This document shows, piece after piece, positions 20,726 through 61,791 of a DNA stretch of 64,000 bases (its first letter is position 1; each line of letters opens with the position of its first letter). The stretch lies in IMG/VR virus record IMGVR_UViG_3300038465_000158, positions 32,686 to 96,685 of that record. One strand, 5' to 3'. Under the pieces are notes generated by a model that was not told where the DNA came from, did no database searches, and saw only the letters and a program-made list of their open reading frames with translations. Made by a program: the position numbers and the translations under genes. The stretch comes from a virus.

Positions 20726-21234
20726 GCAGAAGCAATATCCCAAAAACTACTCAACGTGGTCTTTTTGTGATGTCCACTGGCAATGACAATGAGGTTGCGC
20801 TTGTCCCTGGCAGTCCAGTTGCTGGCGGAGCGACAATAGCAGTGCCAATTACGTGGGTGCATCCACCAAAATTCGGTGCAGGTCCGTATTCGAACTTTGG
20901 ACCAACACCAATTTTCATGCCAGTTGACCCAACAACGAATGTGCAACTTATTGGCGGAATGTTTTGGGCATTAGAGACACTTAGCAGCGGCATTGGAATT
21001 CTTGGAACTGAATACAATCTCAACATTGATAAAAATGGTAGCGCAATAGCAGGTATGACAAATATTTACGTCACGTATTCAACATCTCCAGTTTTTGCAT
21101 CAATCGCTCCAATTGATACTGCAAATGATGATCAATTTGATATTGAACTAATTGACATGAATGCGCCTGGCACCAACCTGTACGGTGCAACAGTTTCTTG
21201 CACTCTTTTCTTCGCTGTGACAGCATTGACGTAA
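20722..21234 (+). CDS. IPKT-QRG paralogue 3
   Basis: A 170-residue third tandem copy. It keeps SNIPKTTQRGLFVMSTGND, NLNIDKNGSAIAGMTNI and ANDDQFDIEL. Overlaps its neighbours at both ends by ATGA and TAATG. Likely a decoration or fibre tip. Confidence 0.6.
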   Translation: MSRSNIPKTTQRGLFVMSTGNDNEVALVPGSPVAGGATIAVPITWVHPPKFGAGPYSNFGPTPIFMPVDPTTNVQLIGGMFWALETLSSGIGILGTEYNLNIDKNGSAIAGMTNIYVTYSTSPVFASIAPIDTANDDQFDIELIDMNAPGTNLYGATVSCTLFFAVTALT

Positions 21235-21983
21235 TGGAAATTATCGACACCTTTCATTTCAACAATGAAATTGAACTTCTGGATTTGAGAGTTCACATTC
21301 TAGAAGACATCGTCGATAAATTCATTGTCAAAGAGGCAGATGAAACGTTCACGAGAAACCCTAAGAAGTGTTTGGCGGCTCTTTACGATCATCCAAAGGT
21401 ATTCACACATAAAGTCGAATTACCGGATGGCACACCGTGGGAGAGAGACACGTATCAGAAAACAGCAAAAGTCAATCTCGATGAGTTCGGCATTTCGTCT
21501 GACGCTCTCATCATGATGAGCGATGTCGATGAGATGCCGAGTGTCGAAGCAATTCATCGAATGACAACGGAACTTAAATATGGAATGCTCTGCAGATTTA
21601 TGCAGCGACCATTTCAACGGTTTCTCAATGTCGAACAAATTGGGCAACCGTGGAGTGGCACACGAGTTTGTCTCGCTTCCACATATCATTTGCTCAATGA
21701 CGGTAATTTCTCGCATCATATGCCGGCGTATTCAATCGGTAAGGGCGGTTGGCATTGGTCATTTCTCGGCGATACTGAAATGATTATTGACAAGATCAAG
21801 TCATATGGCCACACTCAATTCAATACACCAGAGACAATTCGACTTATCGACGAACGAGTAGCGAACAGTCAAGATGTTCTCGGTCGCACATTCCGATTTC
21901 GTACAGTTGACATTGATGAAACCTACCCAGTGTATATACGTGAAAACCAGGATAAATTGCGCCACTTGATCAAGTTAAAATGA
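21234..21983 (+). CDS. GT17-like glycosyltransferase
   Basis: A 249-residue protein resembling family GT17 (N-acetylglucosaminyltransferase type). It starts EIIDTFHFNNEIELLDLR, followed by VDKFIVKEADETF, and has the nucleotide-sugar/metal motif SDVDEMPS near residue 98, all typical of the family. It probably transfers a sugar to a virion fibre protein or to the host surface. It is embedded in the fibre operon, immediately before the lysin. The ATG at 21234 is chosen by the TAATG overlap. Confidence 0.75.
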   Translation: MEIIDTFHFNNEIELLDLRVHILEDIVDKFIVKEADETFTRNPKKCLAALYDHPKVFTHKVELPDGTPWERDTYQKTAKVNLDEFGISSDALIMMSDVDEMPSVEAIHRMTTELKYGMLCRFMQRPFQRFLNVEQIGQPWSGTRVCLASTYHLLNDGNFSHHMPAYSIGKGGWHWSFLGDTEMIIDKIKSYGHTQFNTPETIRLIDERVANSQDVLGRTFRFRTVDIDETYPVYIRENQDKLRHLIKLK

Positions 21984-27984: not shown

Positions 27985-30900
27985 ATGCCCCTCGGCTCCA
28001 ATTACCTAGGGCAGGCGTATCTCGGGCAAGGTCGCGCGCCGCAGCGATTCACTAGGACCGCGACCGATTCGAGTGTCAACACTGATGCGGTAGTCCGCAC
28101 CTACGGTCCGACAAGATTTGCTACTGATTTTTCACTTAACACTGATGCTGCAACTCGTACATTTGCTCAAATTCGTACAACTACGGACAGTTCCGTCAAT
28201 ACTGATGCTACTACTCGAACTACTCAAACACTTATTCGTACGACCACGGACAATTCCGTCAACACCGATGCCATTATTCGCGCAATTCAAGTCTTCACTA
28301 GAACAGCAACGGATTCTAGCATCAATACTGATGCAGTAACTCGCATCCAAGGACGAACACGTTCGGCAACTGATGCTTCAGTGAATACAGATGCAATCAT
28401 TAGATCAGTTCAAACATTAGTCAGAGCCGCGTCAGATTCGAGTGCCAATACTGATGTCGTAACGGCTACCAAAGTCTTTATTCGTGCTGCTAGTGATTCA
28501 AGTATCAACACGGATGCAGTCGTACGAGCAGTTCAAATTTTCATCCGCGTAGCGACAGATAGTTCCGTCAATACAGATGTAGCTGCAAGAACGATTTCGC
28601 GTGTCAGAACTACTACTGATTCGTCAATAAACACGGATTCTGTATCGCGCAACGTTCAAATATTTAGTCGCGCCACAACGGATACCTCAACTAACACGGA
28701 TTCTGTCACTAGAGGGCCTCTGATATTTACTAGAACGGCTACAGACACTTCTCTCAACGCAGATGCTGCAGTTCGAATTGTCGCGATTACTCAAACGGCA
28801 ACTGATTCATCAATCAACACTGATGCAGCCGTTAGAAGTGTTCAAATCTTCATCCGCACCGCAACAGACGCAAGTTTGAATACTGATTCCGTAGTTCGTT
28901 CGTTCGTCAAACTTCGAACTACTACTGATTCATCAATCAATACGGATGTCGTTACTCGAGCAACAATTATCTTCATTCGCACAACAGCCGATTCATCAGT
29001 GAACACGGACAATGCTGCACATTCGTTCATAATAGCAAGGACTGCAACTGATTCATCGGTCAATACCGATGTAGTCGTCCGTTCGGTCTTAGCACTTGCC
29101 AGAAGCGCAAGCGATTCGAGTATCAACACAGACATCGTTATTCGTACGATGCAGATATTTGTACGCACAGTAACGGATGCAAGCATCAATACCGATGCTG
29201 TTGCACGTACTTTCATTTTTGCTCGGTCTGTAGCAGATTCTTCAGTCAACGCAGATGTTGCAACAACACCGCTGGTAAACCGAACAGCATCAGACGCATC
29301 TGTCAATACGGATACTGTGCTTCGTACGTTCATCTGGATTCGAGTTGCTAGTGACAGTTCTGTCAATACGGATGCAGCTATACGAGCGGCGCAAACGCTC
29401 GTTCGTACGGCGACGGACAACTCAATCAACACAGATTCTGCTGCGCGGTCGAGTCAAATCTTTGCAAGAAGTGCAACTGACGCATCTGTCAACACTGACA
29501 ATGCTATACGATCTTTGACCGTAATCCGCGTCGCAACCGATACATCAATCAATACGGATGCAGTTATTAGAAGTGTTCAAACGTTCATCAGAACGATAAG
29601 TGATTCTAGCACCAACACTGATGTAGCAGTAAGAATTCGTTCCGCTGTCCGTGCAGCGATTGATTCGAGCATCAACACGGACGCGATAGTTCGTGCCGTG
29701 CAAACGTTCATTCGAAGTGCCACAGATGCAGCACTGAACACTGATGCTGTGGTTCGATCGTTCGTTGAGATTCGAACGATAACTGATACGTCTCTTACTG
29801 CCGACACGGTTATTCGAACTCAAACGTTCGTCAGAACAGTAACTGACGCGTCAGTCAATACAGATAGTGTCATTCGGCAACTGACGTTTGCACGAACATG
29901 CTCTGATGTATCTATCAATACTGATTCTGCTTCTCGCACAAGATTGATCATTCGGACTACTGCTGATGCATCAATCAACACGGATGCTGTTGTTCGATCA
30001 ATTCAAGTTTTCGTACGATCAACGAATGATTCTTCTGTTAACACAGATTCAGTAGTCAGTACATTGACAATTGTTCGAAGTAGTGCAGATTCATCGCTCA
30101 ATACGGATATGATATCCAGAGCGATTCAAGCATTTATTCGTTCCGCGGTAGACGCAAGTATCAACACTGACAGCGCATCACAAAGTCAAATAGCAATTCG
30201 AATAGCGGCAGACTCATCAGTCAATACTGATGTTACGACTCGCGGGACCCAAGTTTTTGCTAGAACTGCTGGCGATAACTCAATCAATACAGACACTGCT
30301 ATTCGAGCAAGAACAATAAGTAGAACTGCTGCTGATGCTTCAGTAAACACCGATGCTGTAGCACGAACTATTCAAATATTCATTCGAAGTAACACAGATT
30401 CGTCACTTAATACTGATGCGACGGTAAGGTCGACGCATATATTCGTCAGAAGCGCCGCGGAATCAAGTCTCAATACAGATGCAGTCACTCGGTCAATCAT
30501 CATCTTTATTCGCAACGCAGTTGACTCATCAGTGAACGCAGATGCTATTACTCGAACTCAAGCAATTTCTCGTTCAACTTCTGACACGAGCCTCAACACT
30601 GATACGGTCGTACGAACGTTCATACGAATTCGAACGACGAATGATTCTAGTCTCAACACAGATTCTGTTCAACGGTCATTCATGCAAATTCGAACAAGCA
30701 CGGATGCTTCTGTCAATACTGATATCGCAACTCAATCAGAATCTCTACACAGAGTTGTCACTGATTCATCGCTTAACACTGATGTGACAATTCGAGCGGC
30801 GCAGTTGTTTATTCGAGGCATAACGGATTCGAGTCTCAATACTGATAATGCTGGCATCTCCAACGCAATTCTTCGTTTTGCTTCAGACACCTCAATTGAC

Positions 30901-31971
30901 ACAGATGCAGTAGCAAGAACGCAAGCAGTATTTATTCGTTCTACTACTGATTCTTCTACAAACGTAGATGCAGTTACACGAGTAGAGACTGAAAATCGAA
31001 ATGCAATAGACAACAGCAATAACGCTGACACAACAACTCGTTCTGCCGCGTTCGTTCGCTCTGTTTCAGACACTTCACTCAACTCTGACATTGCTACTAG
31101 ATCAACAACCGCGGTTCGTGCAGCGGCAGATTCTTCAATCAACAATGACAATGCTACAAAATCAACAATGTACTTCAGAATTTGCGCGGATGCAAGTACA
31201 AATGCAGATTCTGCTTCACGGTCGGCGACGTTCGCTAGCCGAAATGCGATTGACTCATCGCTCAATGTAGACGCTACCATTCGCAGTCAAGTCTTCGTAC
31301 GATCTATTGCTGATGCGTCAACAAATACTGATGTTGCTGTCAATTCCAGCGGTCTTCCAACTAGATTTGCGAATGATTCTTCAGTCGACAATGACAACGC
31401 CACGAGAACGCATTCTGCAACACGGTCAACATCCGATTCGAGCATCAATACGGATAATGCTTCTGGCTCGCGGTCAACAAGCCATTCCGCAACAGATTCT
31501 TCTCTCAATACAGATACTGTCGCTGCGTTGACAATAATGACTCGAACGATAACCGATGCAAGTCATAATGCGGATTCCATCAACCAGTACATTACGTTCA
31601 CTCGAACTACTACAGATCTTTCGATAAATGTAGATGTCGCTACACGCGCAACTGGACTTTACCGAGGAATTGCTGACCAGTCATTCAATACTGACATCAC
31701 AACTCGCCGATTCATTGTTACCCGAAGCACCGTCGATACTTCTCTTAACACAGACGTTGCAGTCGGTACCTCCACGTCAAAGAGCAACATTGTCATCACA
31801 TCTGCGACTGTAGGCATTCTCACTAGCGTCACAAATGCACTCGGAATCTCAACTTCAACAAGTAATTCAACAACAATAGAAGCTTCGGTAGACGTTTCAA
31901 TCGATGTTGCGACTACTGTTGATAGTGATATTCAAGATGCAGACACAGTCTCAACGAATGTACGAGTGTAA
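27985..31971 (+). CDS. 1328-residue protein with 61 tandem 20-21-residue repeats
   Basis: After a short N terminus MPLGSNYLGQAYLGQGRA, shared with the fibre at 14145, the protein consists of 61 consecutive units of consensus xTDSSxNTDAxxRxxxxFxR, mostly 20 or 21 residues (a few 19). The last ~75 residues are Ser/Thr/Val-rich and non-repetitive. The strict ATD-SS-NTD core with alternating hydrophobic residues suggests a beta-solenoid or long fibrous stalk; at one turn per unit it would be a very long rod. The DNA repeats have diverged at silent sites, so the array is old and maintained by selection. No known repeat family recognised. Confidence 0.8.
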   Translation: MPLGSNYLGQAYLGQGRAPQRFTRTATDSSVNTDAVVRTYGPTRFATDFSLNTDAATRTFAQIRTTTDSSVNTDATTRTTQTLIRTTTDNSVNTDAIIRAIQVFTRTATDSSINTDAVTRIQGRTRSATDASVNTDAIIRSVQTLVRAASDSSANTDVVTATKVFIRAASDSSINTDAVVRAVQIFIRVATDSSVNTDVAARTISRVRTTTDSSINTDSVSRNVQIFSRATTDTSTNTDSVTRGPLIFTRTATDTSLNADAAVRIVAITQTATDSSINTDAAVRSVQIFIRTATDASLNTDSVVRSFVKLRTTTDSSINTDVVTRATIIFIRTTADSSVNTDNAAHSFIIARTATDSSVNTDVVVRSVLALARSASDSSINTDIVIRTMQIFVRTVTDASINTDAVARTFIFARSVADSSVNADVATTPLVNRTASDASVNTDTVLRTFIWIRVASDSSVNTDAAIRAAQTLVRTATDNSINTDSAARSSQIFARSATDASVNTDNAIRSLTVIRVATDTSINTDAVIRSVQTFIRTISDSSTNTDVAVRIRSAVRAAIDSSINTDAIVRAVQTFIRSATDAALNTDAVVRSFVEIRTITDTSLTADTVIRTQTFVRTVTDASVNTDSVIRQLTFARTCSDVSINTDSASRTRLIIRTTADASINTDAVVRSIQVFVRSTNDSSVNTDSVVSTLTIVRSSADSSLNTDMISRAIQAFIRSAVDASINTDSASQSQIAIRIAADSSVNTDVTTRGTQVFARTAGDNSINTDTAIRARTISRTAADASVNTDAVARTIQIFIRSNTDSSLNTDATVRSTHIFVRSAAESSLNTDAVTRSIIIFIRNAVDSSVNADAITRTQAISRSTSDTSLNTDTVVRTFIRIRTTNDSSLNTDSVQRSFMQIRTSTDASVNTDIATQSESLHRVVTDSSLNTDVTIRAAQLFIRGITDSSLNTDNAGISNAILRFASDTSIDTDAVARTQAVFIRSTTDSSTNVDAVTRVETENRNAIDNSNNADTTTRSAAFVRSVSDTSLNSDIATRSTTAVRAAADSSINNDNATKSTMYFRICADASTNADSASRSATFASRNAIDSSLNVDATIRSQVFVRSIADASTNTDVAVNSSGLPTRFANDSSVDNDNATRTHSATRSTSDSSINTDNASGSRSTSHSATDSSLNTDTVAALTIMTRTITDASHNADSINQYITFTRTTTDLSINVDVATRATGLYRGIADQSFNTDITTRRFIVTRSTVDTSLNTDVAVGTSTSKSNIVITSATVGILTSVTNALGISTSTSNSTTIEASVDVSIDVATTVDSDIQDADTVSTNVRV
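28057..31770 (+). repeat. 61-unit in-frame 60-63 bp tandem repeat
   Basis: Coding repeat with core codons for D-S-S-x-N-T-D. Units are clearly alike in protein but use different synonymous codons (aat/aac, acg/aca/act, gat/gac). Repeat length alternates without a strict higher-order period. Units 48-60 are the most degenerate. Confidence 0.85.
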
Positions 31972-33519: not shown

Positions 33520-34356
33520 GTGCTGATATTTTTGGAAGGCGCTGACGGAACGGGGAAGACCACCCTCGCAAATGAGTTGCTAGAATTTTTGGGTGGACCG
33601 GAACATGCTGAAATCCTTCATCGAGGCGTGCCAGTCAGTCACATTCTTGACGAGTACGAACTTCCTCTTTATAACTACCACACGTTCGAGACAAAGTCAA
33701 TCATCTGCGACCGCTGGCATATCGGTGCTGATGTGTACGGACCACTCAAACGAAATGACGGTGGCATCGACCCAGTCATTGGCTGGCACATGGACTCGTT
33801 TTTCAAAGCCAAAGGCGCGTATCTTGTCTACACCGAGATGCCGTTGACCGAACTCGCTGCTCGAGTCATTGAACGCGGTGATGACTACATTGACCCAATT
33901 GAGATTCCAGCCATTATCGCTCGATATCGAGAAGCAATTTCGATGACGACACTTCCTCTCTATGGTTCGACAACTGGATTTCATAATGCTGAAGCCGTGG
34001 CAATTCTTGCTAGTTCCATGGAAATTGGAGCAGCTCAAATCGGCATGTTCAAATCGTACGTCGGTCCACGTCGACCAGTGAAGTTATATGTCGGCAAATC
34101 TCCGACTCCTATCGCGTTCATGCCGTATGAGAATACACCGTCGTATGACATCATCAAGACTCTCGGTGCTCTAAATCCAGTTCATGCCGGATTTATTGAT
34201 TGCCGAGAAGATTTAGCGAGAGCATGGGACGCTCTCTACAACCCGTTCGTCATTGCACTCGATGAAGATGCAGACGCCGCATGTCACAGTGCCCAGATAC
34301 CATTTAACAAGTCAAAGGACGAAGACCCATGGAAATTCACAACAACCATCTCCTAA
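33520..34356 (+). CDS. deoxynucleoside monophosphate kinase with extra C-terminal domain
   Basis: A 278-residue protein starting at GTG after AAGGACGG. Residues 1-165 are thymidylate-kinase-like: Walker A GADGTGKTT, DRWHIGADVYGP (the DR motif contacting the base) and ARVIERGDDY (lid). It should phosphorylate a dNMP, perhaps the modified dCMP made by the next gene. Residues 185-278 (VKLYVGKSPTPIAFMPYENT) form a separate domain not usual in dTMP kinases. Overlaps the next gene by 28 bases. Confidence 0.75.
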   Translation: MLIFLEGADGTGKTTLANELLEFLGGPEHAEILHRGVPVSHILDEYELPLYNYHTFETKSIICDRWHIGADVYGPLKRNDGGIDPVIGWHMDSFFKAKGAYLVYTEMPLTELAARVIERGDDYIDPIEIPAIIARYREAISMTTLPLYGSTTGFHNAEAVAILASSMEIGAAQIGMFKSYVGPRRPVKLYVGKSPTPIAFMPYENTPSYDIIKTLGALNPVHAGFIDCREDLARAWDALYNPFVIALDEDADAACHSAQIPFNKSKDEDPWKFTTTIS

Positions 34357-35204
34357 TTGAAGATGTTCGCTGGGACTATCCTGAGCTATTGAAGATGCTT
34401 CGGGACCACGGAGAGGAGACAAGTCCTCGCGGCCAACCGACTCGAGAAATCATCGACGTAGTCATGAAACTTGACCCTCACTCTGCTATCGTCCATGGAA
34501 TCAATCGTCGACTGAGCATGAAACTCATCAGCATGGAATCACTCACTCTTATCACTGGCACCTCATATCCACAACGGCTCATCAAAGCTGCTCCTAACAT
34601 GGCACGATACTTGGACGGTGAAGTGTTTCACGGACATTATGGAGTACGAATTGGCGCTCAACTTGCTGGAGTCATCAATCGTCTAAAGGCGGACAAAGAT
34701 ACTCGCCAAGCACTCATCACAATTTGGGACCCAATTCTTGACTTGTTCAACGGAGTCCAACCAAAGGACGTTCCATGCACCACAATTCTTCAGTTCTTGA
34801 TTCGCAAAGACCAACTCGTACTTCATGTCACGATGCGAAGCAATGACGTATGGTGGGGCACTCCCCATGACTGGGGTCAATTCTCGCAACTCCAACTCGC
34901 AATCGCCAATGTTCTCGGTATCGAGGCTGGACCGTACTACCACCACGCTGTCTCGTTTCATCTCTACGAAAAAGACTTCGACAAAATTGATTTACTCACG
35001 CAACCGATTCAAGTACTTGAACGACATGACGGTCTTGGTTGGGAGAACATCAGTCTCGAAGATTTGAAGACGGTTGCAGAGACACTCATTGAATGTCCGA
35101 TAGTCGTATCCCCCAATGGATTCACAGAAGAGTGGCATAAAAAGCAACAAATAGCAATCGATGTAATGGATGAGAGGTCTGATGCAACGCATATCTTGGG
35201 ATGA
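34329..35204 (+). CDS. thymidylate-synthase homologue, probable dCMP hydroxymethylase
   Basis: A 291-residue member of the thymidylate synthase/dCMP hydroxymethylase family. Catalytic Cys150 lies in DVPCTTILQF; Arg170-Ser171 and Asp173 lie in MRSNDVWWG; His211 and Tyr213 lie in FHLYEKD. Aligned without gaps to E. coli ThyA, the pyrimidine-reading Asn177 is Asp181 here (TPHDWGQ instead of LPFNIAS). Asp at this place is the known signature of T4 dCMP hydroxymethylase, so the likely product is 5-hydroxymethyl-dCMP rather than dTMP. It sits between a dNMP kinase and a dCMP deaminase. Confidence 0.75.
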   Translation: MEIHNNHLLIEDVRWDYPELLKMLRDHGEETSPRGQPTREIIDVVMKLDPHSAIVHGINRRLSMKLISMESLTLITGTSYPQRLIKAAPNMARYLDGEVFHGHYGVRIGAQLAGVINRLKADKDTRQALITIWDPILDLFNGVQPKDVPCTTILQFLIRKDQLVLHVTMRSNDVWWGTPHDWGQFSQLQLAIANVLGIEAGPYYHHAVSFHLYEKDFDKIDLLTQPIQVLERHDGLGWENISLEDLKTVAETLIECPIVVSPNGFTEEWHKKQQIAIDVMDERSDATHILG

Positions 35205-35670
35205 GCTCTGGATGGGAACGGCGAAGTTGGTCGGTCAACGAAGTCTTTGCTCTCGTGCTCAATACGGCGCCGTCATCGTTTCCGAAGACAACAGGATTCT
35301 GTCAGTCGGCTACAACGGTCCACCAGCAAATGCTGGTTACATCTCTGGATGCGAGAATTGGTGCGTTCGAGCAATGAATGCAAGAGAACTTGGTGAAGAC
35401 CATGTCGATCCACATCACGGTGATTGTCATGCTATTCACGCTGAGATGAACTCAGTTCTTCGAGCAGGAAATCTTTGGCTTGAAAAGGCACCGACACTCT
35501 ACGTCAATGCAGTCACGTGCCTTCGCTGCGCTCTCATGACATCGAATTCTGGCGTTCGTCGCATCGTCATGCTTGTCACGCCGTATGAGGAAAAGCGTGA
35601 CCCGATAGCAACGGAAGCGCTGTTCAAGCAGTACGACATCAAGGTCACCGTCATCAAGGAGCAAGATTGA
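35182..35670 (+). CDS. dCMP deaminase
   Basis: A 162-residue zinc deaminase of the dCMP deaminase family. Motifs: YGAVIVSEDNRILSVGYNG, HAIHAEMNSVL (His and catalytic Glu) and VTCLRCALM (the two zinc cysteines). It converts dCMP to dUMP and would lower unmodified dCMP in the cell. ATG 35182 has GAGAGG four bases upstream and is preferred to ATG 35170. It overlaps both neighbours. Confidence 0.85.
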   Translation: MQRISWDELWMGTAKLVGQRSLCSRAQYGAVIVSEDNRILSVGYNGPPANAGYISGCENWCVRAMNARELGEDHVDPHHGDCHAIHAEMNSVLRAGNLWLEKAPTLYVNAVTCLRCALMTSNSGVRRIVMLVTPYEEKRDPIATEALFKQYDIKVTVIKEQD

Positions 35671-37451
35671 GTCTCGGAAACCCCAACCTAGAAATTGTCA
35701 ACTCAGTAGAGTCCGCCGGTAAATTCATGACATGGTTAGGAGAACGGCGAGACGTTCTAGGATTTGACACAGAAACCACCGGACTTGACCCTAACATTGA
35801 CAAACTTCGTCTTGTGCAATTCGGCGACCTCGGCACCGGCTGGGCGATTCCTTGGAGCCAATGGGGCGGAGTTTCATTAGAAGCAATTTCTAAGTACCGA
35901 GACAAGCCTATGGTCGGTCACAACGCGAAATTCGATGTGAGATTCCTCGAGTTCCACGGTAATATTCGTATGCCCCGTGAGAACATCCATGACACTCGAT
36001 TGATGTGCCATATTCTTAATCCCGCTGGTTCGACGGCATTGAAGAGCAACGCGGCACGATTGGTCGACCCGACGGCGGCATACGCCAGCAAGCAACTTGA
36101 TGAGGTCATGAGTCAGCAGCACTGGACGTGGGCGACTGTCCCGGTCGACTTCCAGCTTTACTGGTGCTACGGTGCGCTTGATACTGTGTTGACGGCGCAT
36201 CTTTACGACAAACTCAAGCCGCAAATTGACCAAGGTTACAAGGACGTCTACGACCTCGAACAGGCAGTCCAATGGGTTCTTGCCGATATGGAGGCCAGGG
36301 GCTCTAGAATCGATCTGGAGTACACTCGTGACAAATCAGCACAACTCGCCGCATATGCAGATTCAATTGAAGATTGGTGCAAAACTACGTACGGCTTTGG
36401 GCCTGGTCAAAACACGAAAGTCGCGCAGCAACTCAATGCTCTCGGCGCGGACCTCGGCCGTCGTACGACGACTGGTGCATTCAAGTTAGACGAGTCAGTT
36501 CTTGAAGAAGTTCTCGGTTGCGAGTTCGAAGACGCAAAAACGAGGACCGACTTCACAGAAGCGCAGGAATTGGCGTATCGAGTACTCGGTCGACGAAAAG
36601 CTGAGAAGATTCGGTCGACGTATCTCGACCCATTCCTCGATTTTGTCGATGCAGACGGCTTTGTCCATCCTCGTATGAATCAAGTCGGGGCGCGTACGGG
36701 CCGCATGTCAATGGAACGACCAGCACTTCAAACTCTTCCGCGAGGACGAGTCGTTCGTGACTGCTTCATTCCTCGAGATGGGAACGGTCTTCTCAGCGCA
36801 GACTTCGACGGCATTGAGATGCGATGCCTTGCTCATTACGCTCAAGACCCCGCTCTCATTGACGCTATCAACTCCGGTGATATTCACCTTGCCACCGCTC
36901 GTCAAGTCTACAAAGACAACACGATTGAAAAGAAAGACATTCGACGGCAAATCGCAAAGAGCGTCGGGTTCGCCAAGATTTACGGCGCAGGCCCTGAGAA
37001 AATTGCGTGGACGGCTGGAATCTCACTTGACGATGCAAAACGCTTTCTTGCTCAGTACGACGTAATGTTTCCTGGAGTCAAGACGTTCCAGAATACCGTC
37101 GCTCAAGTTGTCAAGCAGCGCAAACAAGAGACAGGAATCGCGTCGGTCCATACACCGATTGGTCGACTTGAACTCGCGCCAGATGACCGTGACTATGCTC
37201 TCGTCAACGCTCTCATTCAGGGTATGGCAGCAGACGTCTTCAAGGAAGCGCTTGTCCGACTTGACAATTCAGAGGCTGGGCAATTTCTCATGCTGCCGGT
37301 CCATGACGAAATCATTGCTGATGTACCATTGGAACTAATGGATGACGTTAAAGTCACAATTCAACGAACCATGTCGGACGACAGATGGGCAGTGCCATTG
37401 ACAGTTGGCATTGATGGTCCGCTCGAACGCTGGGGTGCAAAATATCATTAA
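35667..37451 (+). CDS. DNA polymerase I (family A) with 3'-5' exonuclease
   Basis: A 594-residue replicative polymerase. Residues 25-190 are a DEDD exonuclease (LGFDTETTGLD, NAKFDVRFLE, CYGALDTVLT). The polymerase domain has motif A SADFDGIEMRCLAHY, the O-helix region RRQIAKSVGFAKIYGAG and motif C PVHDEIIADV. There is no 5'-3' exonuclease domain, as usual for phage enzymes. The start is TTG 35667 with AAGGAG upstream, overlapping the deaminase stop. Its end overlaps a homing-endonuclease gene. Confidence 0.93.
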   Translation: MSLGNPNLEIVNSVESAGKFMTWLGERRDVLGFDTETTGLDPNIDKLRLVQFGDLGTGWAIPWSQWGGVSLEAISKYRDKPMVGHNAKFDVRFLEFHGNIRMPRENIHDTRLMCHILNPAGSTALKSNAARLVDPTAAYASKQLDEVMSQQHWTWATVPVDFQLYWCYGALDTVLTAHLYDKLKPQIDQGYKDVYDLEQAVQWVLADMEARGSRIDLEYTRDKSAQLAAYADSIEDWCKTTYGFGPGQNTKVAQQLNALGADLGRRTTTGAFKLDESVLEEVLGCEFEDAKTRTDFTEAQELAYRVLGRRKAEKIRSTYLDPFLDFVDADGFVHPRMNQVGARTGRMSMERPALQTLPRGRVVRDCFIPRDGNGLLSADFDGIEMRCLAHYAQDPALIDAINSGDIHLATARQVYKDNTIEKKDIRRQIAKSVGFAKIYGAGPEKIAWTAGISLDDAKRFLAQYDVMFPGVKTFQNTVAQVVKQRKQETGIASVHTPIGRLELAPDDRDYALVNALIQGMAADVFKEALVRLDNSEAGQFLMLPVHDEIIADVPLELMDDVKVTIQRTMSDDRWAVPLTVGIDGPLERWGAKYH

Positions 37452-38004
37452 GAAATACGTTGTTTACGGTCTAGTTGACCCAAGGACAAACGAAATTCGC
37501 TACGTCGGCAAAACTCGACAGTTGCTTAAAAATCGGCTTAAGAAGCATTATGAAGACGCAAGTAATCCTCAAAATATTCGTCATAAGGCACAATGGTTTA
37601 GAGTTTTAAAGCAAAATGGGTTAAGACCCTCTGTAAAAATTCTACAAAAATGCGCAGATAACGAAAAAGCATGCGCTGCAGAAATTTGGTGGATTAGTCA
37701 CTTAAAATCAACTGGTGTGGATTTAACTAATCTCACGTCTGGCGGAGACGCAGGCGACGGTTGGCATCACACAGAAGAAGTAAAAAAGAAAATGAGTTTG
37801 CTAAGCACTGGTAGAAAACGTTCTCAAAAGTCTATTGAAGCAACTGCCGCAGCACATCGCGGTAGAAAACGTTCTGAAGAAACGCGGCAAAAAATTAGTG
37901 TAGCACTTCGTGGCAAAAATTTATCGCAACAAACTCGGCAAAAAATGAGCGAAACACATCTAGCAAGAAATCAAAAACTTCGTGAAAATGGTTTATCAAA
38001 GTAG
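37435..38004 (+). CDS. GIY-YIG homing endonuclease with NUMOD3-type repeats
   Basis: A 189-residue endonuclease: YVVYGLVDPRTNEIRYVGKT (GIY-YIG motif), then three copies of a NUMOD3-like DNA-binding motif (for example GRKRSQKS, GRKRSEET, GKNLSQQT). Start GTG 37435 overlaps the polymerase stop by 17 bases. The gene is visibly richer in A and T than its neighbours and prefers TTA and AAA codons, a mark of transfer. It is free-standing, inserted precisely between polymerase and resolvase genes; no intron boundaries are seen. Confidence 0.85.
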   Translation: MQNIIKKYVVYGLVDPRTNEIRYVGKTRQLLKNRLKKHYEDASNPQNIRHKAQWFRVLKQNGLRPSVKILQKCADNEKACAAEIWWISHLKSTGVDLTNLTSGGDAGDGWHHTEEVKKKMSLLSTGRKRSQKSIEATAAAHRGRKRSEETRQKISVALRGKNLSQQTRQKMSETHLARNQKLRENGLSK

Positions 38005-42650: not shown

Positions 42651-43259
42651 ATGCGAATCGTCTTCGACTTTGATGGCGGAGTGGCGAACACCATGCCTCT
42701 TATTGCCGATGCTGCTTCTGGCATCGTCAATAAGAGGTTTGGCACGCCAATAGAAATCGCTGAAGAGTGGTACTGGCGGACTGCTGGTCTTCCATTCGCG
42801 GAACAACTCGCCGTGCTCGATAATCAAATGAATTACGACATGACGACAAAGCAACTCATGGAGAGCACAATTGAACTTCATGGATTCGTGAACATGATTT
42901 ATGACGTCGCTGAACCATGGCCCGACGCACATCCAGCGTTTGAAGCACTCGATTACGGCATGCATCTTGTGAGTGCGACTAGTTCACAACTCGTGAGCAG
43001 ATTCGTCTATAAATGGTTTCCAGAAGCTTTAGAGTCTGTCGAACCAGAAAGCAAACTCTACGCGCTGCAGCGGATTGTCTCGACATCAAAAAGCACAAAG
43101 AAGGTGTTGTACATCGGGGACATGCCGAATGACAAGAAGGTTGCTGACATTGTCGGCGCTGATTTCATCGGAATCGACAGAGGCAGAGATTTGCCTTGGA
43201 CGGAATCGACGAAAGTCGCCGCAGGATTGATGGAAGCATTGGAGATGGCAAGTGTCTAA
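42651..43259 (+). CDS. HAD-family phosphatase
   Basis: A 202-residue haloacid-dehalogenase phosphohydrolase. Motif I is VFDFDGGVANT, motif II VSATSSQ, motif III in SKSTKKVLYI and motif IV IGDMPNDKKVA. A helical cap (residues 20-95) follows motif I. Substrate unknown; in this position a modified deoxynucleotide or a phosphorylated intermediate of base modification is possible. It overlaps the next gene by eight bases. Confidence 0.8.
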   Translation: MRIVFDFDGGVANTMPLIADAASGIVNKRFGTPIEIAEEWYWRTAGLPFAEQLAVLDNQMNYDMTTKQLMESTIELHGFVNMIYDVAEPWPDAHPAFEALDYGMHLVSATSSQLVSRFVYKWFPEALESVEPESKLYALQRIVSTSKSTKKVLYIGDMPNDKKVADIVGADFIGIDRGRDLPWTESTKVAAGLMEALEMASV

Positions 43260-44172
43260 ACCTCGCTACACACTCGCTAAAGATGAAGACCAAGCACGAG
43301 AATATCGTCGTCAATTCATCGAATTTTCAAAGGCTGAACTTCTTACAGGTGGACCAGACCAGTCAATCACTGTCATAGGAGAACTTGCTCGACGGTACGT
43401 CACTCGTCCTGACTGGCTCGTTGGATGCTTTATGGCACCGTACACGACGCCAGGAGCTCTCGCAATCTACGATGCATGGTCAGACGCTGAGCACGCTCTC
43501 GATATTGCCGATGAACAGGATATTGCAGTCTGGTTCCAAGACAATTGGGAAGGACTGCCTGTCCGCAAAGAACGTCGTCCCTGCCGAAGTCCGAAGAAGA
43601 TGGCAGAGTATCTTGCATCATATGCTCGATGGTCAACGAACTTCTTGCCAAAAGCGAAGGACGCAGACTATGAAACGCTCTGGCGCTCGTTGGATGGCAT
43701 CAAGTACATCGGACGATATGCTGGCATGAAGTTGCTTGAGTCTCTTCGACGTGGTGGAATCATCACCGCTGAGATGCCAGACATTCGTGCTGGTAAAGGC
43801 GGTGACTGGTCACCTCGACTTGCGTTCTCCTATCTCTATCCTGAATTCGACTTGATGCTGAACCGAGATTCGTCACAAGCGACAGCCGCATCTATCAATC
43901 GTATTGCAGGTGACATCTACCCAATGTACAAGACAGCCGCTGGAATCCCAGACATGTACACATTTGAAGTTCTGCTTTGCGATTTTGCTCAGCATCTTAA
44001 AGGAACGTATCCGCCTGGAAAACCATTGAATTCAGAATGGAATCACTTGCAAAAAGTTGAATCCTGGTTAGGATTTTCATTAGTTGATACCGACCCAATT
44101 TGGCGCCTACGTAGTGAACTTTTTCCTCACGAATATCTTCGTGAGATTAGCGGATGGGTACCACCAGAATGA
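43252..44172 (+). CDS. glycosylase-like aGPT-Pplase/ADDT-type protein, candidate base-hypermodification enzyme
   Basis: A 306-residue protein starting at GTG. The central segment LDGIKYIGRYAGMKLLESLR is a helix-hairpin-helix-like element, followed by GGDWSPRLAFSYLYPEFDL. This resembles, from memory, the alpha-glutamyl/putrescinyl-thymine pyrophosphorylase (ADDT) families, DNA-glycosylase-fold proteins that take part in attaching groups to phosphorylated hydroxymethylpyrimidines in phage DNA. A P-loop kinase of the type that works with these enzymes lies 1 kb downstream. The family call needs a profile search; a plain HhH glycosylase relative is the alternative. Confidence 0.5.
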   Translation: MSKPRYTLAKDEDQAREYRRQFIEFSKAELLTGGPDQSITVIGELARRYVTRPDWLVGCFMAPYTTPGALAIYDAWSDAEHALDIADEQDIAVWFQDNWEGLPVRKERRPCRSPKKMAEYLASYARWSTNFLPKAKDADYETLWRSLDGIKYIGRYAGMKLLESLRRGGIITAEMPDIRAGKGGDWSPRLAFSYLYPEFDLMLNRDSSQATAASINRIAGDIYPMYKTAAGIPDMYTFEVLLCDFAQHLKGTYPPGKPLNSEWNHLQKVESWLGFSLVDTDPIWRLRSELFPHEYLREISGWVPPE

Positions 44173-44606
44173 TTGAAGTTTCACCGGGACTCTGGATTCG
44201 TGGGCAATTGAATGAAAAACGAGGCCAAGGGGAAGCAATTGCATATTTGCAACAACTCGGTATTCATTCAGTTATGTCAGTTCATCCGCGAGGAGAACCG
44301 ATGCTAATTGGCCAAAGTGCGATTGCGTATCGTCATGAGTCATTGTCGGACGGTAAAAAGATTTCATCTCGAGTGCAAGACATTGCGGACTGGGTATGGG
44401 AGCACGTTCTCGGCGGAGTACTTGTGACGTGTCATGCTGGAAGAAATCGAAGTGGTCTCATCGTTGCTCTTACGCTAATGCGTCTCTACACTCTTAGCGG
44501 CGAAGAAGCATTACTAATGCTTCGAAGCCAACGACCTCGAGCAGTAGCAAATCCTGCATTTGAAGAGTACTTGAAAGGACTCCCAAAGTATGACTATCGA
44601 AGTTGA
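44169..44606 (+). CDS. dual-specificity phosphatase
   Basis: A 145-residue cysteine phosphatase. The P-loop is VTCHAGRNRSGL (C-x5-R), and the general-acid Asp may be in SLSDGKK. ATG 44169 within ATGA is chosen. Such enzymes act on phosphoproteins, nucleotides or RNA caps; here it is embedded among putative base-modification genes and might remove a phosphate from an intermediate. Confidence 0.75.
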   Translation: MIEVSPGLWIRGQLNEKRGQGEAIAYLQQLGIHSVMSVHPRGEPMLIGQSAIAYRHESLSDGKKISSRVQDIADWVWEHVLGGVLVTCHAGRNRSGLIVALTLMRLYTLSGEEALLMLRSQRPRAVANPAFEEYLKGLPKYDYRS

Positions 44607-45249
44607 CGAAAAGACAGGATTGTTCTACCGTACTCATGCGGACGATTCCATGATTATCGGAGAACGTCGGCTCTATAAGAAGTTGCTTGAAGTTGCGCGA
44701 CCAACTGACAGATTTCTTGACCTCGGTGCGCACATCGGAGTCGTTGCGACGATGTTCGGACCGCACGTTGCGCAAGTTATCGCACTTGAGCCAGACGAAG
44801 ACAATCTCACTCTTCTTCGCAAAAACGTCGAAAAATTCAATCTTCAGGGTAAGGTATCTATCATCCCCGAAGCAGTCGCTGACGAGACGGGCACCAGAAG
44901 TTTCTACTTGAACACCAAAAGGGGCATGTGCTCGCATACACTTGTCAAGAAGCGTGGACGAGTTGAAGTGCAAGTTCCAGTGGTTGCGTTCCACGAACTT
45001 CTCGACACATACAATCCTGACCTCATCAAGATGGACATTGAAGGCGGCGAGTACGAACTCATTGGTGACCTTCGCTATCTCCCGCTCAGCGTGAGAGGAA
45101 TCTCCATCGAACTTCACATGAATCGGAAGGAATGGCGAGAGGATTTGGCGCCGAAGATTCATCGAATTCTGAGCGAGCAATTCACTGTAGTTCTTCCACC
45201 AAAATTTGGACCAGGAGGTTGGGGAACTACTCCTCTTTATCTACGATGA
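44590..45249 (+). CDS. FkbM-family SAM methyltransferase
   Basis: A 219-residue class I methyltransferase. SAM motif I is FLDLGAHIGVVA, the acidic residue is in ALEPDEDN, and IKMDIEGGEYEL is the FkbM signature. FkbM enzymes usually O-methylate sugars or other hydroxyls. In this cluster the target could be a hydroxyl or an added group on the modified base. It overlaps both neighbours (17 and 4 bases). Confidence 0.8.
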   Translation: MTIEVDEKTGLFYRTHADDSMIIGERRLYKKLLEVARPTDRFLDLGAHIGVVATMFGPHVAQVIALEPDEDNLTLLRKNVEKFNLQGKVSIIPEAVADETGTRSFYLNTKRGMCSHTLVKKRGRVEVQVPVVAFHELLDTYNPDLIKMDIEGGEYELIGDLRYLPLSVRGISIELHMNRKEWREDLAPKIHRILSEQFTVVLPPKFGPGGWGTTPLYLR

Positions 45250-45812
45250 CAGTACTCAATCTTCGAGGGGGCAACGGAAGTGGAAAGACCTTCGTTCACC
45301 ATTGGCTCATCGACAATCATGAGTCGGTGCCGCTTTTCACACCCAATTTCTTCTCTGACACGGAGAAGAAACCAAATGCATGGATGCTCCCTGGTGGTCT
45401 CTTCATCATCGGCAAATACACTGGTGGAGCAGACAGCATTTTGTTCCAAGACCTTTATGCTCAAGTACAAGCGTTTGCTCAAGAAGGCCACGTGTTCTTT
45501 GAGAACATTCTCGTCTCTGGGTCGAAGCAAGCTTGGTTGAGTAAACGACGGACGATTTCCAGTGATTGGATTTGGGCGACACTTGACACTCCGCCTGAGC
45601 TTTGTCTTGAACGAATCTACGAGCGCAACGGTGGTAAGCCAATCCAAGAGAACACGATTCGAGATTTTAACCAACGGATTCGTACTCTCGCAACGTGGCT
45701 TTACAATCAAGGCGAGACATCAGTCCGCGTTGACCACACAGATTCGGTACGGATAGTTCATCAACTTCTAACGGACGGGGGGTGGGAGTGTGGAACTACA
45801 CATGAGTACTGA
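45246..45812 (+). CDS. P-loop kinase resembling 5-hydroxymethylpyrimidine DNA kinase
   Basis: A 188-residue P-loop protein. Walker A is RGGNGSGKTFV (Lys14), followed by GKYTGGADSI, then GHVFFENILVSG and ATLDTPPELCLERIYERNGG (base/lid region). From memory, this order (GGxGSGKT, YxGGxDxI, LxTPxxxCxxRxxxRN) is that of phage hydroxymethyluracil DNA kinases, which phosphorylate the hydroxymethyl group in DNA before further modification. Given the dCMP-hydroxymethylase signature upstream, the substrate may be hydroxymethylcytosine. Confidence 0.55.
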   Translation: MTVLNLRGGNGSGKTFVHHWLIDNHESVPLFTPNFFSDTEKKPNAWMLPGGLFIIGKYTGGADSILFQDLYAQVQAFAQEGHVFFENILVSGSKQAWLSKRRTISSDWIWATLDTPPELCLERIYERNGGKPIQENTIRDFNQRIRTLATWLYNQGETSVRVDHTDSVRIVHQLLTDGGWECGTTHEY

Positions 45813-46227
45813 GCTTCGCTACCGCGCTGAGGATTTTGCTATTCGTACCGACCTTATGCGATGTGCGCATCTGAAAAAAGCAAAACAGCAGTTTTGGGCT
45901 ACGTTGCATGGACCGGCTGAAATCACATGTCGAGACTGCGCAGTACCGAAGCTGCAATTCTGCACTCAATGTGGTGAACCAGCGACGTTCTTCTACGTGC
46001 TTGACTATCTTCGTGGCGAAAGTGGAAATGACCCGAATTACTTCATTGCTGCATCATGCGGTAAATGCAATTATGACACAGGTTTTATGAACTTCGGTGT
46101 AAAGTTGCTCAAGATGAAGGATGCGGACAACAAGAAGTACTTCATGGCAGTGCGATTGAGCACATGCAATGACATTCCAGTCGCAGGAATACCGAAGGTC
46201 AAAAAGACGAAGGAGACGGATGAGTAA
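45802..46227 (+). CDS. zinc-finger protein
   Basis: A 141-residue protein; ATG 45802 (MSTELRYRA) is chosen, with GTG 45790 possible. It has four Cys pairs or near-pairs: CRDC, CTQC, and CGKC plus single Cys at residue 21, suggesting two zinc ribbons. Role unknown; it sits inside the modification cluster and may be a DNA-contacting accessory. Confidence 0.6.
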   Translation: MSTELRYRAEDFAIRTDLMRCAHLKKAKQQFWATLHGPAEITCRDCAVPKLQFCTQCGEPATFFYVLDYLRGESGNDPNYFIAASCGKCNYDTGFMNFGVKLLKMKDADNKKYFMAVRLSTCNDIPVAGIPKVKKTKETDE

Positions 46228-46645
46228 TTGGAACTGGCTTGAAGAAACGCTCGACCTTCAACGGACAGCATTTAAGATTGACCCTCCAGCGTTGGAAGGC
46301 GATGAGTTCGCTGACTACGTCATTTGGAATCACACTGCTGCTGTCGCTGAACTCACTGAGTTTCTCGAAGAAAATAATTGGAAACCATGGAGTTCGATTC
46401 GTGGTCGAGGCGACCGAGATGCTGCAATTGGTGAACTCATCGATGTGCAGCATTTCATCGCGAATCTTCTCGTTGCTCTCGATTGCACTGATGAAGAGTA
46501 CGAGGTCCGCTACCAGATGAAAATGCAAGTGAATCGCAACCGACAAAAAGACGGATATGACGGCCAAAATAAGTGTCCACGATGCCGAAGAGCATTAGAC
46601 GATGCTGGTGTGCTTTGCACACCGACAAATTGCTATGGAGGTTAA
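46220..46645 (+). CDS. MazG/dimeric-dUTPase-like pyrophosphatase, possible dCTPase
   Basis: A 141-residue all-alpha NTP pyrophosphatase relative. Helix 1 has AVAELTEFLEE, helix 2 AAIGELIDVQHFIANLLVAL (E-x3-D metal site), and the tail DEEYEVRYQMKMQVNRNRQ is typical of phage dUTPase/dCTPase-like proteins. A C-terminal CPRC and two further Cys form a small zinc knuckle. T4 gp56, which destroys dCTP and dUTP so that hydroxymethylcytosine replaces cytosine, belongs to the same superfamily. AAGGAG precedes the ATG. Confidence 0.7.
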   Translation: MSNWNWLEETLDLQRTAFKIDPPALEGDEFADYVIWNHTAAVAELTEFLEENNWKPWSSIRGRGDRDAAIGELIDVQHFIANLLVALDCTDEEYEVRYQMKMQVNRNRQKDGYDGQNKCPRCRRALDDAGVLCTPTNCYGG

Positions 46646-47865
46646 TGTCAATCCGTTTCGTTGATGCTCATTGTTTTGCGGGAGGACTCGCTTTAGGAAT
46701 CAAGCAAAGCGGTGATTTCGAGTTGGTTGGCAAGAAAGAATCTCAAGGCGGCTTCGGTTCACTGAACATGGAAGCAAATCGTCATATCATGGGCGAAAAT
46801 TGGGAGACGCAAAGCGCAGCATACCAAGATTGGGAACCAATTGATGCTCAACTCGTAGCGGCAAATCCTCCTTGCTCTGCATTCTCACTTCTCTCGTCGC
46901 GTTCAGTTCGCGGTATGGACTCGAAAATCAATGCATGCATGTGGGGAGTCGCCGAATACGCCGCTCGCGTGAAGCCAGACATTTTCATGATGGAGTCTGT
47001 TCAAGGCGCGTACACTCAAGGCAAAGATTTAATGGTGCGATTACGCGCTCGTCTTGAAGAACTGAGCGGCGAGCAATACGAGCTCACTCACGTTCTTCAC
47101 TCTGCTCGCTCGATGGGCTCTCCTCAACTACGCCGTCGCTATATGATGGTCTGCCATAAAATTCCGTTCGGCGTCGAACCTCCAGACCCGCAGGAATTGC
47201 CAACTGTGCGAGACTGTATTGATGACCTTCGTGATTTGAAGATTCAATGGGGACCACAGCCGTACAAGCGGATGCCTCTCTCGATGTGGGCAGCGACCAA
47301 GAGGAGTTTTGACGGCCTTATAGATGGTCATGTCTACATGCAGAATCTCAGTCAGAAGCGCATGGAGTTCCTGATGAAGACTGGCAAGTGGACACCGGGC
47401 AAGCAATACAGCGATTTGATGAGGGAGCTCTATGAGAGCAATATCGAATTGGACAGAGACATGTTCAAGCCATATTCATCGATGGTCGAACAAGATTTCC
47501 AATTTGGATGGCGTAGTCCGTACGTCATTCGTCCTGATTGGACTTGTCCTGTTATTACTGGCAACGGTGGCGGTGGAATTGGTCATTATGCTGAACATCG
47601 CATCTTGACCCAGCGAGAAGTTGCTCGTCTCATGGGTTTTCCTGACAACTGGCTAATTGAGCCAAACCAGCGCTACAAGTACCTCAACTCTGGTTGGGGA
47701 AAGGGAGTCACTGTCGATGTTGGCCGTTATTTTGGCACTTGGGCTGGCCGTTCAATCAATGGAGAACCAGGGTCAGTAACTGGTGAGCTCATTGGTGAGC
47801 GCGAACGTCTCATCAACTACACCCAGCACTTCCGAAACTTCGCTGGAGCGCAAAAAGCCGCATAA
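46645..47865 (+). CDS. DNA cytosine-5 methyltransferase
   Basis: A 406-residue C5-cytosine methyltransferase. Motif I is DAHCFAGGLALGIKQSG, motif IV ANPPCSAFS with catalytic Cys77, motif VI MMESVQGA, motif VIII SPQLRRRYM, and motifs IX-X LTQREVARLMGFPDNW and GKGVTVDVGRYFG. The target-recognition region lies at about residues 190-310. GGAGG is three bases before ATG. It may protect DNA against host restriction; its role alongside a predicted dCMP hydroxymethylase is puzzling. Confidence 0.85.
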   Translation: MSIRFVDAHCFAGGLALGIKQSGDFELVGKKESQGGFGSLNMEANRHIMGENWETQSAAYQDWEPIDAQLVAANPPCSAFSLLSSRSVRGMDSKINACMWGVAEYAARVKPDIFMMESVQGAYTQGKDLMVRLRARLEELSGEQYELTHVLHSARSMGSPQLRRRYMMVCHKIPFGVEPPDPQELPTVRDCIDDLRDLKIQWGPQPYKRMPLSMWAATKRSFDGLIDGHVYMQNLSQKRMEFLMKTGKWTPGKQYSDLMRELYESNIELDRDMFKPYSSMVEQDFQFGWRSPYVIRPDWTCPVITGNGGGGIGHYAEHRILTQREVARLMGFPDNWLIEPNQRYKYLNSGWGKGVTVDVGRYFGTWAGRSINGEPGSVTGELIGERERLINYTQHFRNFAGAQKAA

Positions 47866-61337: not shown

Positions 61338-61655
61338 TCATCGGAGGTTCACTGAGTAGACATTGAGAAGCGGAATTCGTCGTTTGCGTCGTTCTTTGAC
61401 GCGTTCACGTTCTGTCATCCCACCCCAGATGCCGTAACTTTCATATCTCAACGCGTAGTCAAGACACTCTTGTTCGAGCGGACAGGAATGACAGAATTGC
61501 TTGCAGAGGTGAACGTCACCCATCGAGGGAGAGTAGAAATTAAGACCAGAGTTGAAGCAGAGTCCGACAAGTTTGATTTTGTGGAGCATCGCGATTGCGT
61601 GAGAGACTGCTGCTCGCTTTTTGACTGGGAACAATACTTCTAGCGCGTCAGACAC
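61338..61655 (-). CDS. WhiB-family regulator 2, atypical
   Basis: A 105-residue protein from GTG 61655 (GGGAG four bases upstream; overlaps the previous stop by eight bases). Cys33, 55, 58 and 64 fit the cluster spacing, with an extra Cys51 in CKQFCHSCPLEQECLDYA. GYGIWGGMTERERVK-type turn is present (SYGIWGGMTERER). The spacing to the first Cys and the ~30-residue N-terminal extension differ from WhiB 1. It probably acts with or against WhiB 1 at host RNA polymerase. Confidence 0.82.
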   Translation of the reverse strand: MSDALEVLFPVKKRAAVSHAIAMLHKIKLVGLCFNSGLNFYSPSMGDVHLCKQFCHSCPLEQECLDYALRYESYGIWGGMTERERVKERRKRRIPLLNVYSVNLR

Positions 61656-61791
61656 TGTTCTCCCATTCTTCTTTGAGCATGAACTCAAGTTCGAACATGT
61701 GTTGCGCATGTTTAATGGCGATAACGGCCTCGTCTACTTGATTGATTGCGGATTCGTACATCTGCTCGAAGAACGGGTCATTCGCGTTCAT
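61648..61791 (-). CDS. 47-residue helical protein
   Basis: ATG 61791 (MNANDPFFEQMYESAINQVD) to the stop at 61648, acidic and helical. It overlaps the exonuclease gene by 14 bases and the WhiB gene by eight. Supported by coupling and composition only. Confidence 0.5.
   Translation of the reverse strand: MNANDPFFEQMYESAINQVDEAVIAIKHAQHMFELEFMLKEEWENSV

Follow-up and report, generated by a model that had tools for sequence, protein, structure and literature searches.

The window, the whole 64,000-nucleotide stretch of viral DNA that was analyzed from a 96.7 kb IMG/VR record, carries at positions 42651 to 47865 a single tight operon whose genes all lie on the plus strand and overlap their neighbors by 1 to 23 bases. 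In order, these genes encode a HAD phosphatase (42651–43259; HAD_2 PF13419, 3.9e-7), an ADDT-like protein that is a predicted 5-phosphomethylcytosine transferase (43252–44172; PF18724, 1e-4, 22.6 bits), a dual-specificity-fold phosphatase (DSP) predicted to act on inositol phosphates (44154–44606; DSPc PF00782, 1.1e-9), an FkbM O-methyltransferase (44590–45249; PF05050, 1.9e-13; TIGR01444, 8e-23), an HMUDK-like DNA kinase predicted to act on 5hmC (45246–45812; HMUDK_HMUD1 PF18748, 9.8e-6, 25.6 bits), a Zn-ribbon-like protein (45790–46227) that has weak Pfam Zn-ribbon matches and is conserved in the relatives L031, L107, and L108, a MazG-type NTP pyrophosphatase that is a predicted dCTPase/dUTPase (46220–46645; dUTPase_2 PF08761, 8.2e-8; phrog_18650, 5e-28), and a C5-cytosine-MTase-like protein with an altered motif I (46645–47865; PF00145, 8e-26). 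An earlier sequence-only reading had named six of these genes, all of which are confirmed by Pfam matches and phage relatives; the Zn-ribbon and C5-MTase-like genes had gone unnamed. The region has no megablast match among cultured phages. A WhiB-like regulator encoded on the minus strand (61338–61709; PF02467, 4.1e-13) marks the host as what appears to be an actinobacterium.

Taken alone, the ADDT-like protein and the kinase fall short of the Pfam cut-offs for their families, which are 26.2 bits for PF18724 and 27 bits for PF18748. Because relatives with the identical gene order exceed these values, at 34.2 (L108), 31.6 (L107), and 30.5 bits (L035) for the former family and at 33.9 bits (L031) for the latter, we regard both sub-threshold matches as real, and the proposed kinship of the two proteins to the aGPT-Pplase and HMUDK families holds. 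Single-sequence scans with the ADDT-like protein gave one distant match in viral contigs and none in genome contigs; alignment queries were required. The kinase has the P-loop GGNGSGKT and matches 401 phage records, among them gp54 of phage M6 (35% over 84%; tblastn, 2e-12). A structure model of the ADDT-like protein (pLDDT 91.9) finds its closest solved counterpart in PUGT (8z2n; Foldseek probability 1.00, TM 0.48/0.51, with a weak E-value of 0.04), a 5-phosphomethyl-deoxyuridine glycinyltransferase that displaces the phosphate from 5-phosphomethyl-dU. The model also resembles helix-hairpin-helix DNA glycosylases.

The group that would replace the phosphate is suggested by the company that ADDT genes keep. 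In the close relatives L031 and L108, a gene for myo-inositol-1-phosphate synthase (MIPS) lies immediately upstream; none is found in the 96.7 kb record. Among loci that are related to one another and were partly picked by MIPS, ADDT, or kinase, an ADDT gene is near 35 of 54 MIPS clusters on viral contigs and is present in every DSP-bearing MIPS cluster (21/21), and MIPS–ADDT pairs are always on the same strand (51/51), with 34 of them no more than 130 bases apart. The cultured Caulobacter phage Cr30 provides an independent case, wherein Tet_JBP, ADDT, and MIPS genes occur inside about 6.5 kb. The window ADDT falls within a 33-member clade (support 99/98), 30 members of which are MIPS-linked, and its sister is the MIPS-linked L031 protein (support 100/100). 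With its DSP and kinase, the window thus matches the MIPS-ADDT-DSP-kinase cassettes, minus MIPS. The adjacency of MIPS and ADDT in relatives and the clade to which the window ADDT belongs suggest that the added group is probably inositol-derived. Lacking MIPS, the window phage would depend on its actinobacterial host for inositol. MIPS could also serve some purpose unrelated to DNA, and we found nothing relevant on inositol in phage DNA in the open-licence literature.

The strongest competing explanation, which we nonetheless consider unlikely, retains the kinase and ADDT reactions on 5hmC and supplies an amino acid as nucleophile in the style of M6 and PaMx11, the MIPS genes of relatives being incidental or confined to another branch. 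PF18724 is named for amino-acid transfer, the nearest solved structure is a glycinyltransferase, and the window itself has no MIPS gene; however, M6-type amino-acid ADDTs fall apart from the MIPS-linked clade that holds the window protein. Moreover, most loci that combine ADDT and kinase without MIPS also lack a DSP, whereas the window has one.

The base on which the cassette would act is indicated by a thymidylate synthase-fold gene located upstream on the same strand (34329–35204; PF00303, 1.1e-17), whose product has the MilA CMP hydroxymethylase as its best PDB match. Hydroxymethylases were classed as Asp-type or Asn-type by the residue at Escherichia coli TS position 177, with the residue following the catalytic Cys as a second site; the residue types of cytosine and thymine enzymes have been described (PMC5175136, PMC8670742). 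Asp181 and Cys150-Thr151 of the window enzyme agree with T4 gp42, in contrast to the Asn found at both positions in the enzymes of M6, Sonora, Adastra, Marshall, and SPO1-like and ViI-like phages. Both residues therefore side with the dCMP specificity that had been proposed for this predicted dCMP hydroxymethylase. An adjoining plus-strand gene encodes a thymidylate-kinase-like (TMPK-like) P-loop protein (33520–34356; phrog_761, 2.2e-13), probably a 5hm-dCMP kinase, and such a kinase adjoins an Asp-type hydroxymethylase in DSL-LC01, L152, and L153 as well. A TET/JBP oxygenase was rejected as the source of 5hmC, as the 96.7 kb record has no match to Tet_JBP (PF12851).

The genes that accompany the DNA kinase also divide by hydroxymethylase type. 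M6 encodes an HMUDK helical domain (gp55; HMUDK_hel, PF18723) as the kinase partner, and no match to this family is present in the 96.7 kb record. Among typed ADDT loci, the helical partner occurs in 25 of 30 Asn-type (thymine) loci and in no Asp-type (cytosine) locus; the C5-MTase-like gene occurs in six of nine Asp-type loci, the others being incomplete, and in no Asn-type locus. Members of this C5-MTase-like family keep the PPC, ESV, and RxR motifs, and the first Gly of the SAM loop is substituted in all 10 aligned members. We considered and dropped the idea that the protein is SAM-independent: the window protein keeps an acidic residue at the position of the HhaI motif II Glu, and our claim is therefore limited to an altered motif I. 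It probably stands in for the thymine-type helical partner by presenting the cytosine base. The Asp/Thr hydroxymethylase and the split between helical partner and C5-MTase-like protein, together with the profile matches and the PUGT fold, lend good sequence-level support to the earlier proposal that kinase and glycosylase-fold logic may operate on 5hmC.

A plus-strand dCMP deaminase gene (35170–35670; PF00383, 9e-16) counts against a cytosine target, as its product could divert 5hm-dCMP to uracil. It fits an alternative that we judge quite unlikely, namely ordinary thymidine hypermodification, wherein deamination turns 5hm-dCMP into 5hm-dUMP or dUMP is the substrate of the TS-like enzyme. The kinase and ADDT families (PF18748 and PF18724) were indeed described for 5hmdU, and MIPS also occurs in some thymine-type cassettes, but both active-site residues that separate the two types match the cytosine enzymes, and a C5-MTase-like gene takes the place of the missing helical partner. 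Syntenic relatives argue in the same direction: DSL-LC01 and Kurnik share the replication backbone, have glycosyltransferase genes in the same slot (with a UDP-galactopyranose mutase in addition in DSL-LC01), and likewise have an Asp-type hydroxymethylase. The kinase/ADDT chemistry seems to have switched targets, between thymine and cytosine, on more than one occasion.

The slot from the SSB-like gene to MazG differs in content among relatives, and HAD, DSP, and FkbM are promiscuous families, but it is very improbable that unrelated accessory genes for nucleotide metabolism, host-signaling phosphatases, and surface-glycan methylation gathered there by chance, because IMG/VR contigs independent of one another repeat the order ADDT-DSP-(FkbM)-kinase-ZnR-MazG-C5MT, ADDT-DSP-kinase order is retained across unrelated backbones together with TS and MIPS, and where the slot is filled differently it holds glycosyltransferases.

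Sequence and structure show which enzyme families are present, that the hydroxymethylase has dCMP-type residues, that the genes form a conserved operon, and that ADDT and MIPS are linked in relatives; together these observations make it reasonably probable that the operon hypermodifies 5hmC in phage DNA through a kinase followed by ADDT-catalyzed displacement, with inositol as the most likely group. On this inositol model, the TS-fold enzyme would make 5hm-dCMP, the TMPK-like kinase would begin converting it to the triphosphate, and competing dCTP/dUTP would be removed by the MazG enzyme. Polymerase would then place 5hmC into DNA, where the HMUDK-like kinase would phosphorylate the 5-hydroxymethyl group of a cytosine probably presented by the C5-MTase-like protein. 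In a fourth step, the ADDT-like enzyme would swap this phosphate for a nucleophile, the likeliest being host-derived myo-inositol or its phosphate. Finally, DSP and HAD would dephosphorylate the inositol, either while it is free or once it is attached, and FkbM would O-methylate it. The resulting DNA would be hidden from restriction and other nucleases. We infer all substrates, the order of the steps from phosphorylation onward, and the use of inositol by this particular phage.

Residues Cys93, Arg99, and Asp66 of the DSP are unchanged in nine relatives; its fold matches generic dual-specificity protein phosphatases, which offer no substrate hint, and its predicted inositol-phosphate role is therefore suggested by co-occurrence with MIPS. 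The HAD gene is found in L107, L108, and L153 and is missing from L031-type relatives, and FkbM is absent from the latter as well. PDB sequence searches with FkbM and HAD gave no matches. Thus, the gene for the proposed methyl addition is present as first described, but both it and HAD are optional members, and methylation would be at most a late decoration.

To our knowledge, phosphorylate-then-displace hypermodification is known for thymine only, and its use on cytosine with inositol would constitute a new class of viral DNA chemical disguise. The tie between widespread viral MIPS and ADDT chemistry would give a probable purpose to an otherwise puzzling phage gene. More broadly, and with slightly less than even confidence, we propose that phages put myo-inositol, self-made or host-derived and O-methylated in some lineages, on hydroxymethylated pyrimidines by means of kinase and ADDT, and that in cytosine lineages the helical partner gives way to a C5-MTase-like protein whose SAM loop has been rebuilt and which flips or activates 5hmC. 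The inositol reading predicts a new class of modified bases, and Cr30 is a cultured phage in which its inositol part is testable. Inositol-5hmC could be mistaken for glucosyl-5hmC by mass because their formulas are identical; the calculated [M+H]+ is 420.161 for both, against 434.177 for the O-methyl-inositol, 500.128 for the inositol phosphate, and 315.130 for the glycine derivative of 5hmC. A kinase and a transferase acting on 5hmC would also serve as 5hmC-labeling tools.

The closest known system is the thymidine hypermodification of Pseudomonas phages M6/YuA and PaMx11, which shares with the window a homologous P-loop kinase, the transferase fold seen in PUGT, and the presence of a TS-fold hydroxymethylase, a dCMP deaminase, and PolI in one genome. 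The window differs in its dCMP-type hydroxymethylase, in having a C5-MTase-like protein in the absence of HMUDK_hel, in the additional DSP, HAD, and FkbM genes, and in the MIPS linkage of its relatives. The T4-type 5hmC pathway, with its dCTPase and DNA glucosyltransferases, likewise combines an Asp-type dCMP hydroxymethylase with an NTP pyrophosphatase; the window cassette has no glycosyltransferase and instead combines a predicted DNA kinase with a transferase that would displace phosphate, and the one Glyco_transf_17 gene (21198–21983) lies amid tail genes. The actinophages Tonitrus, Phelemich, and LittleMunchkin encode an ADDT homolog (25–28%) next to a P-loop kinase, which in Tonitrus belongs to a different family (PF18751) from that of the window; unlike the window, these phages rely on a Tet_JBP oxygenase and lack both TS and C5-MTase. 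In the CmoX/CmoY 5-carboxymethylcytosine system, a C5-MTase fold also readies the cytosine, but the handle is a carboxymethyl group from Cx-SAM, in contrast to the hydroxymethyl handle made on the nucleotide in the window (PMC12783734). Finally, the MetaGPA 5hmC carbamoyltransferase phages pair an Asp177-type TS with an enzyme that tailors 5hmC by carbamoyl transfer (PMC8670742); the Asp-type TS is common to both systems, whereas the kinase and ADDT are particular to the window.

Within the 96,685-base IMG/VR record, of which the window covers positions 32686-96685, the 5-kb cassette (window 42651-47865) is organized as a single plus-strand operon of overlapping genes. Profile matches identify a HAD protein (42651-43259), an ADDT-like protein (amino acid:DNA transferase family; 43252-44172), a dual-specificity phosphatase (DSP; 44154-44606), an FkbM protein (44590-45249), a kinase resembling 5hmdU DNA kinases (HMUDK; 45246-45812), a MazG-type NTPase (46220-46645), a C5-cytosine-MTase-like protein (46645-47865), and, by weak matches, a Zn-ribbon protein (45790-46227). 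The ADDT and HMUDK matches fall just under the Pfam cut-offs in the window phage, whereas relatives that share this gene order score above those thresholds. This complete order recurs in the IMG/VR loci L107 and L108/L109. A further IMG/VR group, that of L031, lacks HAD and FkbM, and IMG/VR locus L035 keeps ADDT-DSP-kinase at another backbone location. Thus, ADDT, DSP, and the kinase are the core of the cassette, and FkbM and HAD are optional.

The window kinase has matches in 401 phage records, including M6 gp54 (35% identity over 84%). A 5hmdU DNA kinase acts on 5hmdU within DNA, phosphorylating its hydroxymethyl group (PMC7653180). A structure model of the ADDT-like protein (24 sequences, pLDDT 91.9) best matches PUGT, a 5-phosphomethyl-dU glycinyltransferase from a Pseudomonas phage (PDB 8z2n/8z2m; probability 1.00, TM 0.48/0.51, E 0.04); helix-hairpin-helix DNA glycosylases rank next. 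Among viral models, its top named matches are amino acid:DNA transferases. The sequence-only reading, which proposed a glycosylase-fold transferase acting with a kinase, is therefore borne out.

The target base is indicated by the hydroxymethylase (34329-35204), whose closest PDB relative is the CMP hydroxymethylase MilA. The residue at E. coli TS position 177 decides which pyrimidine is used (PMC5175136, PMC8670742). The window enzyme carries Asp there and Thr directly after the catalytic Cys, as do T4 gp42 and the enzymes of DSL-LC01, GMA2, Sixama, and ctUtU524, whereas M6, Sonora, one SPO1-like phage, and one ViI-like phage carry Asn at both positions; the two residues covary across typed enzymes. 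ADDT loci whose hydroxymethylase was typed divide accordingly: 25 of the 30 Asn-type loci encode the kinase helical domain and none (0/30) a C5-MTase-like gene, whereas the Asp type has the helical domain in 0/9 and the C5-MTase-like gene in 6/9, the other three contigs stopping before its place. This split is an independent sign that agrees with the hydroxymethylase residues in favoring cytosine as the predicted target. No Tet_JBP is encoded in the window phage's record.

Homologs of the C5-MTase-like protein occur in L010-L013, L031, L035, L107, L108, L152, and L153, and the family is found in glycosyltransferase-type and ADDT-type Asp-TS phages alike. Ten aligned members retain PPC, the ESV-motif Glu, and RxR, and in 10/10 a Phe, Tyr, or Leu occupies the position of the first glycine of the SAM-loop FxGxGG. 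Our guess is that the protein might flip or activate cytosine, substituting for the helical kinase partner.

A candidate for the transferred group comes from myo-inositol-1-phosphate synthase (MIPS), which lies directly upstream of the cassette in L031 and L108 (PF01658, 9e-38; TIGR03450, 3e-163, under that model's equivalog cut-off). We scanned viral contigs for MIPS and typed neighbors with local HMMs, whose labels are local. A MIPS-ADDT-DSP-kinase-TS operon is present in many contigs, and others have the form Tet_JBP-ADDT-MIPS-kinase. ADDT accompanies 35 of 54 MIPS clusters (90% identity) and all DSP-bearing ones (21/21); MIPS-ADDT pairs share a strand in 51/51 cases and lie ≤130 bases apart in 34/51. 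In loci with ADDT and kinase, DSP and MIPS tend to occur together: both are present in 27 cases, neither in 19, MIPS only in 6, and DSP only in 3 (Fisher 8.5e-7, on non-independent loci). The co-occurrence counts throughout draw on mutually related loci that were selected by MIPS, ADDT, or kinase.

In the ADDT tree, the window protein pairs with that of L031 (support 100/100) inside a 33-row clade (99/98) in which 30 rows are MIPS-linked; the others are the window, L107, whose contig ends there, and L035. The clade excludes the M6-type ADDTs as well as those TET-type ADDTs that lack MIPS. The Asp-type locus L152 is nested with full support among Asn-type rows, apart from other Asp-type rows, and the target base therefore probably switched more than once.

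The proposed mechanism draws on enzyme families, key residues, operon conservation, and MIPS-ADDT linkage, all observed at the sequence level; from these we infer the substrates, the order of steps, and inositol use in the window phage. 5hm-dCMP would be synthesized and incorporated into DNA, the resulting 5hmC would be phosphorylated, inositol (or inositol phosphate) would displace the phosphate, DSP/HAD would take off phosphate, and FkbM would perform O-methylation. No MIPS was found in the phage's 96,685-base record, and inositol would come from the pool of its host. That this host is an actinobacterium is indicated by a WhiB gene (PF02467, 4e-13) and by synteny with phages of Micrococcus, Gordonia, and Actinomycetia. 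Actinobacteria produce inositol for mycothiol and phosphatidylinositol.

In cultured Caulobacter phage Cr30 (KF301602.1), a stretch of about 6.5 kb (roughly 6.7-13.2 kb of the locus) encodes Tet_JBP, ADDT (1.3e-52, a strong match), and MIPS. The gene that carries its Tet_JBP domain (9e-23) bears the annotation "putative SNF2 DNA repair protein," and a TAGT-like gene lies near ADDT and the inositol-1-phosphate synthase. Together these genes form a predicted hypermodification cluster that is unremarked in this cultured phage. Separately, in T4-like contigs (L217-L221, L200, L214), a T4-type dCMP hydroxymethylase adjoins MIPS and ADDT is absent, possibly another route to inositol-5hmC. Companions across L219, L200, or L214 include a small HAD-like protein and a conserved GDSH-motif protein; L219 adds an HMUDK_hel-like protein (7e-11) and a C5-MTase-like protein without normal motif I, and L214 has FkbM. 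In Stenotrophomonas phage Moby, MIPS adjoins a 7-deazaguanine gene set (QueC/QueE/TGT/FolE) without ADDT or TS.

Elsewhere in the window, a Glyco_transf_17 gene amid tail genes (21198-21983) could serve tail-protein or, less likely, DNA glycosylation, and a 1328-aa protein with many short SxNTDxVxR repeats (27985-31971) is probably a tail or fiber protein. GIY-YIG/NUMOD3 homing-endonuclease-like genes lie in or near modification and replication genes (window 37405-38004; L107 2659-3270; L152 11046-11600).

Replication genes share one order in the window phage, Actinomycetia phage DSL-LC01, and Micrococcus phage Kurnik, and both of the latter have the C5-MTase-like gene. At the cassette position, DSL-LC01 and Kurnik carry genes annotated as glycosyltransferases, with a UDP-galactopyranose mutase gene in addition in DSL-LC01, and both hydroxymethylases are Asp-type. 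Thus, this slot seems to hold interchangeable 5hmC-tailoring cassettes.
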